In this document: piece by piece, positions 56,194 through 64,000 of the stretch
How the letters are laid out: each line of letters begins with the position of its first letter
How positions within the stretch are numbered: position 1 is the stretch's first letter
Source: Bartonella taylorii 8TBB
GTDB taxonomy: Bacteria > Pseudomonadota > Alphaproteobacteria > Rhizobiales > Rhizobiaceae
Assembly: GCF_902825155.1 (NCBI RefSeq)
Contig: NZ_CADEAG010000006.1
Coordinates: 62,001-126,000, forward strand
Direction: 5' to 3'
Length of the DNA stretch: 64,000 nt
The notes under the pieces: generated by a model
Seen by the model: the letters and a program-made list of their open reading frames with translations, nothing else
Database searches by the model: none
What the model was told of the DNA's origin: nothing
Position numbers and translations under genes: made by a program

Positions 56194-56220
56194 CACGTTT
56201 CACGTGTTTTGTGAAACGTG
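56194..56220. repeat. perfect inverted repeat touching the 5' end of tRNA-Phe
   Basis: CACGTTTCAC (56194-56203) and GTGAAACGTG (56211-56220) are exact reverse complements of ten bases, with a 7-base loop. The last base of the right arm is G1 of tRNA-Phe. It may be a protein-binding site or a hairpin in the tRNA precursor. Confidence 0.8.
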
Positions 56221-56295
56221 CCCAGATAGCTCAGTTGGTAGAGCAGCGGACTGAAAATCCGCGTGTCCGTGGTTCGAATCCGCGTCTGGGCACCA
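56220..56295 (+). tRNA. tRNA-Phe (GAA)
   Basis: A 76-base gene with the acceptor pair GCCCAGA/TCTGGGC, D arm AGCTCAGTTGGTAGAGC, anticodon arm GCGGA CTGAAAA TCCGC with anticodon GAA, T arm with GGTTCGAATCC and encoded CCA at 56293-56295. All stems pair. A tRNA 3' end is a usual integration site for phages and islands, and the genes downstream fit that. No second copy of the tRNA 3' end is seen later in this window. Confidence 0.98.
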
Positions 56296-56395
56296 CTTTT
56301 TGTTTTTAACGTATTGAAATATATAGATTTTTTTCTTTAAAGAGCTGTTTTTAGACTACCTTTTAGACCACCCTTTACGGTTTATACAACTTTAT

Positions 56396-56598
56396 CTAAT
56401 TTACTCCTATTTGTTCCTTATTTTTCTTTGGAGTGAATGTTAAGATCTCTTTCTTTCTCCACCTCACTACTCTCCCTAGCTTATATGGCTCCGGAAACAA
56501 CCCCTGAAGCACCCAATTGCGAATCGTTGTGTGGATACACTAAAAAGCTGTGCACATTCACGTGTCGTTACATATCTATCTCCATCATTAAATATCAT
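56396..56598 (-). pseudogene. AlpA/excisionase-like helix-turn-helix protein, one frameshift
   Basis: From the ATG at 56598 (AAAGG 7 bases upstream) the frame reads MIFNDGDRYVTTRECAQLFS and VST, a winged-helix DNA-binding start of the AlpA/excisionase (HTH_17) kind. It then loses one base near 56530, after which the next frame continues as TIRNWVLQGLFPEPYKLGR and VVRWRKKEILTF to a stop at 56396. The total of 203 bases is one short of 68 codons. Proteins of this type control excision or early genes of prophages and islands. Its place, about 100 bases behind tRNA-Phe, is that of an element's recombination module. The integrase itself is not recognisable. Confidence 0.75.
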
Positions 56599-56630
56599 AT
56601 CATTACCTTTCTCTTTTTTATATTAATTAA

Positions 56631-60031: not shown

Positions 60032-61550
60032 AATCTTACAAGGGGTATAGACTTATTAACTGTATATCTCTCTTGTTATGTTGATTATGTACAATCTCAA
60101 GAACCCTTTACCATGCGATATTCTAAAAAGAGAGGATTTAAACTTTTAAATACTCCACTCTGGATTGCTTTAAGACTTTAAAAAATCCCATTTTGTCTTT
60201 AGTTTTGAGCCAAGATATATCAAGTGATGTGTGGTATTGATAATCACATAGTCAATGGATCAATCAATTTTCAAACGCACCGTTTTGAAAGCAATGGGGC
60301 GGATTACCTACGCTTTAAACAATAGCTTTCAAAAATTCTGACGACAACAGATTAATTTGATACAATGTATTTTGAAAGAGTACACCACATGTAAGTACCG
60401 ATACTACCTATGTTTACGCTGGCTTTTCAGTGACTTTAACAGCTTGGTGTGAGTATAACAGAATTCCTTATAAGAGCATTCCTATTTTAAAAATTAAAAG
60501 GCAACAACAGGAAAAGGTAATTTGGCACTTCAAACAAATTATCATCGATTAAGCACTTTGTAAATCCGTTGATATTTGGTCTCACTTATTTATCTCCTGT
60601 AGAGGAAAATATTTATATAAGATTGCGGATACACATGCTTTACACTAGTGTACCTCTTTTTCATAATCTTGAGGTATTAGTTTATTACAGCGGTTATTTT
60701 GTAAAAAGTTTGAAGCAGTATTAGATATCTTGCTTACAAAAGGATATATCATTCGTTTAACAAATGAGTGTCTGTAGAGATAATGAACTGACAAAGAGCT
60801 AAAAAATTGCAATGAAGATTTAGATAAGGTTTAAGAAAGAAAATCAAAAGCAGTACAAGCATGAGAAAACCAACTACATCTTCACAGATAAGAAAGCATT
60901 CCGAAAAAGTGAAATGGATTAGAACTAATCAAGAATATCAATTGCTTGAGGACTTCAAACCTGATGACGATTTCTTAATTGGAGAGAATTTTTCTCTAGA
61001 ACACGAGAAAATCAAGAGCAGAAAATTTAGATATTACTAGCATTCCAAAAGCAGGAACAAATGTAACCAAAACAGATGAACTGGAAACATGGTGCAATCG
61101 CATACAGAAGGCTGTTGAGAATTTAGAAAAAACGAAAAACTCTATCAAAAGCAGTGAAAATATGTGAACATAGCAACATCCATTAACCTTTATCTCTAGA
61201 GTAAAACTGATACCAGAAACAGAAAAACAAGCTTTTGACATCTGTTAGACTGTTCAAAATTTTTTGTGTTGAGAGCTTTTGTTGATGATATCGCCAATGT
61301 TCTTGATGTGCTGGAAGATGCTCTCTATGAAATAGTTGAGAACACACATCGTAAGGCTTTAGGAGATAAATTCATCTCATTCACGAGAATAGAAAAGCTT
61401 AGTGAAGAATATCAAGAAAAAACTTTGATAGGGAAAACTGGATAAGCTGAAGCTGATGTTTAATATCTTTGAGCTTGGCTTGCTTGAAATTCTTCCAAAG
61501 AACAGTAAAAAGACACCGTACAGAGCGATTGAGTAGTTTTAATACCATAT
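60032..61550 (+). pseudogene. phage-like coding fragments, heavily decayed
   Basis: No intact gene is left, but several protein-like stretches on the plus strand are clear enough to note: TVLKAMGRITYALNNSF (about 60280-60330); AGFSVTLTAWCEYNRIPYKS (about 60415-60480), like the helix-turn-helix of phage HNH-type proteins; KKFEAVLDILLTKGYIIRLT (about 60700-60760), like the DUF1376 replication-associated phage proteins; ETWCNRIQKAVENLEKTKN (about 61085-61150); FVDDIANVLDVLEDALYEIV (about 61275-61335); and KLDKLKLMFNIFELGLLEI (about 61440-61495). They lie in different frames with stops between. The family calls are tentative. Together they suggest a prophage or island early region. Confidence 0.4.
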
Positions 61551-62848
61551 TGGGTGTTAAAATTGCCCTGTACGGCTAAATATGAAGCAAATAGCCTCAC
61601 TAATAAATTAAGGATTAAAGCATCTATTCTTAACAAAACGTAAACAACCAACACAAAAAAAATTACTGCTATGGCTACCAATCACGCACCATAAAGATTT
61701 AGGGTTTCTGAATATTTTTATAACCTTTATAAACACCTAGACAACTCTAGAGAATATGAGAAATTCGATGGTAGACAATACCATGATATCCCTGATAGCA
61801 GAGACTTGAGTACAAAAGCGTAAGTGAAAGCGTAGGTTTATGGTACAACCGTAACCTAGAAATGTTATCAATGATGAACTGCTTATGAATGAGATTAACA
61901 AGGGAATCAAAAAATGTCAGGGGCTATCAGATATGTTTAAAAAATTGGAATTTTAATAATATACAGCACAGAATTTTTGGGTTTTCAATTTTTATAAATA
62001 GAGAAAAACAATAATTTCATTCAAACTGTTTTAATATTTTCATCTATTTTAGAGTAACAATCACTTTCTTAGCAGTTTTTTTAATTCTCTACTTTTTCAA
62101 GCGTGAAACTAGATCGATGCTATAATTACCGCATAATAATTTAAGACATGTTATAGAGCTTAATGCACAACGCTAAGATGATTTACAGATTCTGTTACTG
62201 CTAACCCTAATTCATCAAGCAATTTCTTTTTCAAAAGAGCACCACAGTTTAAAGTATCGTACATCACAGTATCATAATAATACCTCAAAAATAATGGTAA
62301 TCTTGATAATCAACAGGTTATATCTGTTAAAACAAACCGAAAAGTAACACGCCAATTTATCTTAACATGAATTGACTAATAGTTGTTAAAATCAACGAAT
62401 AAGCTTATATAAATGATATGGTTTAATTATTATTTGTATAGGTACAGATATTGTATCTAAAATTACCGAGTAATGTGATCCTCGCCCTGCCCCAAGATCT
62501 TAACTGTAATGAATAACTCTGTTTTCTGGCTTCTTTACGCAACTCCCTATATAGATTTTCATTCACCTTCCCATTTCTTCATAAAATTAATATTGTAAAA
62601 TAAATCTTAATTTCCAACAATAAATAGAGCAAAATTTGCTATATACTTTAAAAATGATATCTTTAGAGCATAAAAATTAGAAAAATAATTATATATAATT
62701 AAAAAAACTGACGAAATGATAAATATATTATTTTGTTTTTCAACTTCACATGACGACTTTATTTAAAATAATTATGTTATTGTTTTATCATAGATACCCA
62801 TAAAAAAATTTTAATTTATATATTAAGTTTAATGAATTTCTGCATTAT
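61551..62848. other. about 1.3-kb very AT-rich region without a gene
   Basis: No frame, RNA gene or repeat array is supported. A short stretch at about 61690-61815 reads EYFYNLYKHLDNSREYEKFD in one frame and may be another decayed coding fragment. At 62536-62592 there is a segment resembling 19844-19900. The left and right ends have base composition like the rest of the island. Confidence 0.4.
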
Positions 62849-63121
62849 TTGCACCAAAAGAGATATAAAATATTACTTAACAAAATGATGCTAATTGAGC
62901 GTCTTGGTGCTGATCTAGAAGACAAGACAATAACTTCTGATGCTGAAATAGTCGATTTTGGCATGACGACTTCTGATAGTTACAAAGGTATAGCACCCAA
63001 TCAGAAAGTAAAAAAAACTGAACGGCATTCTATTGTGGTTTTCAATCTACACTTTGCTAAAAAAGCATTTCAATACTTAAGAAAAAGCTCAATCTGCATT
63101 CCCTCATCTGTCACTGCTTAA
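62849..63121 (+). CDS. doubtful 90-codon open frame in the decayed region
   Basis: A frame that opens with TTG at 62849; ATGs at 62885 and 62888 are better starts but have no ribosome site. The middle reads LIERLGADLEDKTITSDAEI and VDFGMTTSDSYKGIAPNQK, which looks like real protein sequence, while the last part is less convincing. I do not recognise the family. It is probably the remnant of a larger protein of the island, less likely a small intact gene. Confidence 0.3.
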   Translation: MHQKRYKILLNKMMLIERLGADLEDKTITSDAEIVDFGMTTSDSYKGIAPNQKVKKTERHSIVVFNLHFAKKAFQYLRKSSICIPSSVTA

Positions 63122-63971
63122 AGTTACTCTATCGCCTCAGATACTACTGGCTATAGTAGACCTGTTAATTATAGTTTTCATTTTGATTGAAAAAATAAGT
63201 TAGAGAGAAAAAACATGTAAGGAAACGGCTTGAGCCAATTGATAAATTGGCCAATAAAATGTGAAAAAACGTTTTAATTTGTCGCCAGAAATCGCCAAAA
63301 ATTTGCTTTTTGTTTCTTATATCGGATAGCTTTATCTGCAAGATAATCTCAGTCAAGATCAGGATGATACTACACAAAAATATCTTGAAGTGGGAAACTA
63401 TTACTTAGCGCAATTTATGATGAAATGCTTATAATTTCTTATAATAACGTAAGGGAGAAATGAATAAAGATAGCAACAGGACCGTTTTTGAATATATAAA
63501 AGATTTTTTAAAAAGATCTATGTTTATACCGCAAATATAACTTTCATGCCATATTATAGTATCCTGTTCTAGAGGATTAATCACTTCCACATCTTGTTGG
63601 TTCACAGTATATTGCTCTTAATAGGTTGGATAAATATTTTATACAAAGCCTGTAAATTTCAAGCGTCATCTTGGATATTAATGTAACTTCTTTTCAAAAG
63701 CGATAAGTGTAGATTCTAAAGTATCTCATTTTGTTGGGTAATTTAAATCCAATAATCGGTTAATTTGTACTGAGTGAAATCCTAAAAGATACACAAGATT
63801 GGCTTTGCATCATTTTTTTCAACCATAGCATCATATACTGTAATTTTTAAAGTCACAAACGAATATACTTCAACGAAAAAATAGGTAATATCCAAAGAGA
63901 ATAGGACTACGATCTTGGAAATGTCCTATTTTGTTACTTGAAAAGATGAAAAGAAGGACTCTATTTTAAAT
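63122..63971. other. about 850-bp region without a gene
   Basis: The stretch has only short, broken frames on both strands. No tRNA, repeat array or terminator is recognised. It ends at a possible gene end on the minus strand. Confidence 0.4.
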
Positions 63972-64000
63972 TTAAGCGACCTTTTTAGCGGAGCTATCCA
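63972..64000 (-). CDS. possible C-terminal end of a gene running in from the right
   Basis: Read on the minus strand from the right edge, the last bases give DSSAKKVA and a TAA at 63972-63974. The lysine/alanine-rich tail would suit a small basic protein such as a ribosomal or DNA-binding protein. With nine codons this is only a hint. If true, it marks the right edge of the island and the return to core genome. Confidence 0.25.

Follow-up and report, generated by a model that had tools for sequence, protein, structure and literature searches.

We report that the tRNA-Phe region of a 64,000-nucleotide stretch of the Bartonella taylorii 8TBB genome (hereafter the window; G000:C6:62001-126000 of a 236-contig assembly, with positions given on the window's own scale unless stated) is a decaying integrated prophage element, and that the one gene seen intact within it encodes a major facilitator superfamily (MFS) exporter, which in some relatives forms the last part of an enzyme-exporter operon. 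The partner genes are a speD-like gene and a radical S-adenosylmethionine (SAM) gene of HutW/HemN-like type; neither SpeD nor a close relative of the radical SAM protein was detected anywhere in the genome of strain 8TBB, which of the operon holds the MFS gene alone. An earlier note on this DNA had recognised the element and its surviving exporter, and the link to the operon lay beyond its view.

Results

The exporter and its operon partners

The complete set, with all genes intact and in the order speD-like gene, radical SAM gene and MFS gene, is found in three Bartonella genomes (G065, G052 and G054); speD in G052 and G054 was counted as intact because its frame of 133 amino acids (aa) spans the whole conserved domain, despite a stop flagged near the N-terminus. 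The SpeD protein of G065 scores 83.9 bits against TIGR03330 (cut-off 75.65), which places it in the S-adenosylmethionine decarboxylase family, and the motif ESH..HTYPE..DxYTCG is invariant in the four sequences aligned. Because SpeD homologues with other substrates exist (PMC10407285, in part), its activity is assigned at the level of the family. For the radical SAM protein the best NCBIfam match is TIGR04107, at 178.9 bits against a cut-off of 400, below the score for HutW/ChuW membership. Three cysteines, CxxxCxxC, are invariant in the six radical SAM sequences aligned, and we take this to be the usual radical SAM cluster motif. The enzyme has the radical SAM domain in common with HutW/ChuW and HemN but, unlike these, sits beside a SAM decarboxylase and an exporter. 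The exporter itself belongs to PF07690 (2.4e-22).

Of 71 Bartonella genomes, 29 have an intact close copy of the MFS gene, 8 have broken copies only and 34 have no close copy; many of these genomes are drafts, and some of the broken copies may be assembly errors. SpeD was found in five of the 71 and an intact close radical SAM gene in three. Both enzymes are thus intact in 3 of the 29 genomes with an intact exporter, and 26 are without one or both in intact form. The enzyme partners are broken, truncated or absent in G022, G001 and G036, and 3'-end remnants of the radical SAM gene persist in G035, G016, G039 and G034, lying upstream of a lone MFS gene in G016 and G034. Counted among genomes with any close trace, the exporter was intact in 29 of 37 and the radical SAM gene in 3 of 10 (Fisher p 0.007, with a grouping made after the data were seen; the radical SAM trace of G034 came from blastn and the nine others from a separate search).

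Close MFS copies recur at several chromosomal sites: between asd and a LON-domain gene (G065, G011, G018 and G028), between nifU and groEL (G005, G069, G049, G022 and G027; gene names at both sites read from translations), and beside a resolvase, a PIN-domain gene and a ParA-like gene (G001, G052 and G054, the families having been scanned in G054). On the MFS tree the asd-site copies are split over more than one branch (two changes), and those at each of the two other shared sites group together in a single branch. What 20 neighbourhoods share with the window is usually the gene itself, flanked by about 70-250 bp on the upstream side and 0-400 bp on the downstream side. In G028 and G039 the shared stretch is longer, reaching into the Type ISP restriction-modification remnant that follows the exporter in the window, and in five genomes part of this remnant lies beside the MFS gene at unrelated sites. 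Since the exporter occurs at other chromosomal sites, in some of them with part of the Type ISP gene, it looks like a module of separate history inside the tRNA-Phe prophage remnant. Among 50,697 phage records none matched the gene. At least about 70 bp 5' of the MFS gene is held in common with the operon copy by all 31 other copies examined; a consensus promoter scan of 56700-58700 gave 7 sites against 9.0 in shuffles, and none on the plus strand before the MFS gene. The ~220-bp dispersed repeat downstream has several copies near MFS genes elsewhere and at the tRNA-Phe sites of relatives. Over most of its coding region the window copy is nearest to the G065 operon copy, one 100-bp bin excepted, while its upstream flank is nearest to G016 and to the second G065 copy, behind tRNA-Lys, and its downstream flank to that second copy. 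The mosaic suggests gene conversion.

Outside Bartonella, 404 of 72,556 plasmid records were matched in a tblastn search with the radical SAM protein as query. Among the best 25 of the 404, the closest were Glaesserella parasuis pD74 (67.3%), two Klebsiella pneumoniae records of equal length (67.3%), Xenorhabdus sp. (56.6%) and Alicyclobacillus (37.6%). Plasmid pD74 has speD, radical SAM and MFS genes as in the Bartonella operon, but differs in its additional cytochrome P450 (P450) gene (order speD-radical SAM-P450-MFS) and in being a plasmid, not a chromosome; the Xenorhabdus order is speD-radical SAM-MFS-speF, and speD is PF02675 in both. The Klebsiella order is radical SAM-P450-insertion sequence-MFS, beside VapBC, a resolvase and MipZ. 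The small protein beside the Alicyclobacillus radical SAM gene had no family match. On G. parasuis pHS-Rec the first two genes are absent and most of the P450 gene and a 403-aa MFS gene remain, a state resembling that of the exporter-only Bartonella genomes. P. agglomerans L15 holds P450 and MFS fragments. Searches for radical SAM relatives in the class and the phylum returned none in 385 and 398 sampled genomes (own genome included; E 1e-60 and 1e-70), an empty answer that is uninformative by the tool's own warning. We found no description of this speD-radical SAM-MFS gene set, or of its exporter-without-enzymes pattern, in the literature searched, and the main text of PMC10407285 does not mention radical SAM, HutW, Bartonella or P450.

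More distant radical SAM genes were also seen. At L117:3585-9941 (G067:C5) one of them, 39% identical to that of the operon, lies with a ThiF-family enzyme, a cupin/JmjC protein and two MFS genes, a cluster that recalls microcin C-type loci; about a dozen genomes of the genus hold comparable radical SAM genes (36-40%).

Purifying selection on the exporter

The ratio of nonsynonymous to synonymous divergence (dN/dS) among 31 intact exporter copies has a pairwise median of 0.26 (range 0.16-0.46; 465 pairs less those with dS <=0.02, the second copy of G055 being left out). Eight pairs were chosen for a test against neutrality, seven of them sisters on the MFS tree and one (G066/G055) unresolved, using a simple count that ignores transition bias. 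All seven pairs other than the window's own reject neutrality (one-sided p 4e-12 to 4e-5), and six of these seven are exporter-only on both sides, so that purifying selection also acts in the absence of the enzymes. The earlier note's claim that selection keeps the gene therefore holds across the genus, and is thin for the window copy taken by itself, whose pair gives p 0.016.

The prophage at tRNA-Phe

The order of features that the earlier note had read behind tRNA-Phe was confirmed throughout (Table 1), with the AlpA-like gene placed on the minus strand, and so was its well-preserved core in front, where two long genes, purA (52965-54254) and serC (54655-55818; names read from translations), are open. 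The 23 named relatives of serC are all from Bartonella, which fixes the genus, and the nearest is that of Bartonella sp. DB5-6 (95%).

The contig continues past 64000, and a decayed copy of the tRNA-Phe 3' end lies beyond that point (attR, the right attachment site; Table 1). From there on the sequence resembles DNA directly 3' of tRNA-Phe in Ca. B. washoeensis (75.9%, 116 columns) and B. gabonensis (76%, 100 columns), and the Ca. B. washoeensis site, which is without the element, holds the same 13 nucleotides (nt) as the core of attL, the left attachment site. From this repeat and the match that follows it we place the element at ~15.6 kb, from 56296 to ~71868. A direct repeat at the far end, element-free sites in relatives (G005 and G070) and phage genes are the traits of a tRNA-integrated prophage, and bear out the decaying element proposed before. 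The phage genes are the excisionase-like gene, a fragment of a single-stranded DNA-binding (SSB) protein gene and, beyond the window, a broken phage lysozyme; the left end matches a YqaJ-type phage start behind tRNA-Thr. No integrase family turned up when the element was scanned with Pfam in six frames; its own integrase gene may have disappeared, as would be usual in a remnant.

The ~340-bp left end of the prophage is present, whole or in part, at 12 of 16 further tRNA-Phe sites, and the prophage part is in this sense ordinary. Of the four sites without it, those of G005 and G070 reach the following core within ~0.9 kb, and in G013 and G033 different sequence comes before the core. In a set of 23 named loci, which overlaps the 16 sites in genomes, homology continues beyond 56400 in 17 and ends at 56306-56309 in five, one truncated locus giving no row. 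The stretch readable behind tRNA-Phe ranged from ~0.1 to 16 kb per relative, partly set by contig ends. In the same genome, the left-end block also lies behind tRNA-Thr(CGT) and tRNA-Thr(TGT), followed by near-identical open reading frames (ORFs); a scan of one of these showed a YqaJ-type recombinase. Much of 61176-69455 recurs, partly inverted, in the tRNA-Phe element of B. phoceensis.

Of 31 copies of the AlpA-like block, 20 carry the N- and C-terminal motifs within a single open frame and 11 do not (the window included, some loci being one genome twice; 15 were called open by script and five were read from printed segments). An open copy matches PF12728 HTH_17 (8e-09), PF05930 Phage_AlpA exactly at its cut-off (21 bits) and PHROG 66 'excisionase and transcriptional regulator' (5.5e-11); the broken copy of the window reaches only E 0.18 to HTH_17. 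Of the two copies of the excisionase-like gene that follow tRNA-Thr genes elsewhere in the genome, the one at tRNA-Thr(TGT) is open and the one at tRNA-Thr(CGT) has a frameshift (L011:379-797, L010:5013-5439). A 74-aa plus-strand ORF at 56437-56661 was rejected as a gene, being antisense to the AlpA-like gene. In the Type ISP remnant PF18135, the C-terminal domain, was the sole part detected, in two frames with internal stops, and a six-frame Pfam scan of 60146-63997 at E 0.1 found no family besides the SSB-like fragment. The element also contains a remnant of a YopJ-family acetyltransferase gene, broken over two frames (L009 ~12437-13377; 65436-66376 on the window scale).

Table 1. Features at and behind tRNA-Phe, in window positions
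Feature	Position	Strand	Basis or remark
tRNA-Phe (GAA), integration target	56220-56295	+	ARAGORN
attL core, 13 nt, at tRNA 3' end	56284-56296	+	Repeat comparison
Prophage left end	56310-56648		Sequence comparison with relatives and own genome
AlpA/excisionase-like gene, frameshifted	~56394-56598	-	Profile and copy comparison
Gene fragment	56650-56763	+	77% and 75% identity to two other places in the same genome
Stretch 5' of MFS gene, putative promoter region	56907-57010	+	Shared with operon copy
Intact MFS exporter gene, 414 aa	57011-58255	+	ORF, Pfam
Dispersed repeat, ~220 bp	58443-58664		Copy comparison
Type ISP restriction-modification remnant, C-terminal specificity domain only	~58740-59844	+	Pfam; two frames with stops
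Phage-like debris in common with B. phoceensis (L016/G030) tRNA-Phe element	61176-63896
SSB-like fragment within debris	62849-63118		PF00436, 3.2e-07
attR, 12 nt (one base shorter than attL)	71857-71868 = L009:18858-18869		Outside the window

Discussion

We consider it probable that the region combines a prophage remnant with an inserted exporter block, and that the exporter stems from a plasmid-type operon and has been kept as an orphan self-protection pump. An old prophage, one of a family with Bartonella tRNA-Phe as its target, would have integrated at the tRNA 3' end and decayed to its present length; a block with the MFS exporter and the Type ISP remnant sits within that prophage and may have come into it from elsewhere. 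The exporter itself would derive from a horizontally acquired operon of the plasmid-borne kind (speD-radical SAM-MFS, with a P450 gene in some other bacteria). Judged by their families, SpeD may yield decarboxylated S-adenosylmethionine (or some related amine), after which a product may be built by the radical SAM enzyme and exported by the MFS protein, and it is most likely that the operon makes and secretes a small molecule. Copies from operons are scattered on the MFS tree (five changes, four of them forced by supported branches). We infer repeated loss of the enzymes rather than repeated gain; the enzymes were apparently lost more than once across Bartonella, and the exporter, whose upstream stretch is conserved, stayed under purifying selection. 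The lone pump most likely rids the cell of what producer relatives make, or of a similar compound.

Several observations weigh against this explanation. When the operon label was shuffled over the MFS tree, 149 of 500 shuffles gave a value as low, so the label is not clustered beyond chance; 9 of the 28 inner branches of that tree are open, and the changes may partly be gains. The exporter is dispensable, because eight genomes hold broken copies only and 34 no close one. A clean empty operon site was not found at the asd/LON-gene site of the window's own genome, where 344 bp of other sequence stands instead. Among the plasmid relatives, speD is missing from the 16 kb read around the Klebsiella set, and on pD74 the MFS gene has been described as a predicted pseudogene (PMC6211672, in part) while the enzyme genes are open. 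The matches of the exporter to EntS (siderophore) and Mef/Tet (drug efflux) models all fall under the curated cut-offs.

These same weak matches bear on the alternative that the exporter was co-opted as a general efflux or metabolite pump (for heme, polyamines or antibiotic-like compounds), its former partners being irrelevant to its retention. The purifying selection between copies without enzymes is compatible with such a role, as is Pantoea sp. Lij88, where a 51% MFS homologue has no partner gene within the 15 kb read. The sub-threshold scores count against it, however, and the patchy presence of intact copies (29 of 71) suits a conditional role better than a housekeeping one. We rank orphan self-protection as the most likely reason for retention and general efflux second, as a possibility that deserves to be kept in view although we would not bet on it.

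The window's exporter might also be intact merely through recent arrival, with selection playing no part in this genome. Between the window and the G065 operon copy dS is 0.029, against 0.050 for serC, and in a neutral simulation of substitutions only, 53% of copies were still open at 0.015 substitutions per site, falling to 1.75% at 0.1. Since about half of neutral copies would remain open at 0.015, and given the p value of the window's own pair, the case for selection is strong genus-wide and weak for the window copy alone, whose intactness lends the main explanation little weight. The genus-wide dN/dS and the intact copies at far larger divergence speak against recent arrival as the explanation, and we think it rather unlikely.

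That everything from tRNA-Phe on is one old element which carried the MFS gene in, as the earlier note had supposed, fits the single pair of end repeats and the presence of an MFS fragment within the B. phoceensis copy of this tRNA-Phe element, but we judge it improbable, because that fragment lies at another point of the element, MFS genes stand elsewhere at unrelated sites (five genomes with part of the Type ISP remnant), and G065 is the nearest relative by the serC-to-tRNA-Phe stretch (98%) and has the left end at its tRNA-Phe and both its close MFS copies away from it. No intact prophage of the family with an MFS gene at the same point appeared in the stretches read. Of the supposition, the integrated remnant with its end repeats is supported and the single origin, as stated, is not.

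The prophage remnant belongs to an already known kind of element. Bartonella prophage I (prophages Ia/Ib of B. grahamii) is likewise a phage-derived region of the genus (PMC2697382, in part). The same source describes rapid decay as the normal fate of prophages and states that prophage I has disappeared independently from B. quintana and from single strains of B. henselae. Its tRNA passages do not name tRNA-Phe as the site of prophage I, so prophage I and the tRNA-Phe prophage need not be the same; unlike prophage I as described there, the window copy is a remnant with a foreign exporter block.

It may be that the gene set constitutes an undescribed plasmid-borne pathway for a secreted SAM-based antimicrobial or signal, with the Bartonella pump acting as orphan immunity; most pump-bearing lineages would then have given up production and retained the pump alone because producers persist in shared hosts or vectors, a proposal that we put forward as speculative. 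In any case the prophage ruin is ordinary, and the exporter-without-enzymes pattern is the unusual part. It has the look of a natural experiment, the enzymes having apparently been shed on several occasions and the pump having stayed, both in Bartonella and in one clear Glaesserella plasmid example (pHS-Rec). The operon is short and open to laboratory testing. If the pump does confer orphan immunity, it would point to a small molecule passing between blood-borne bacteria with hosts and vectors in common, and would offer a handle for finding that molecule.

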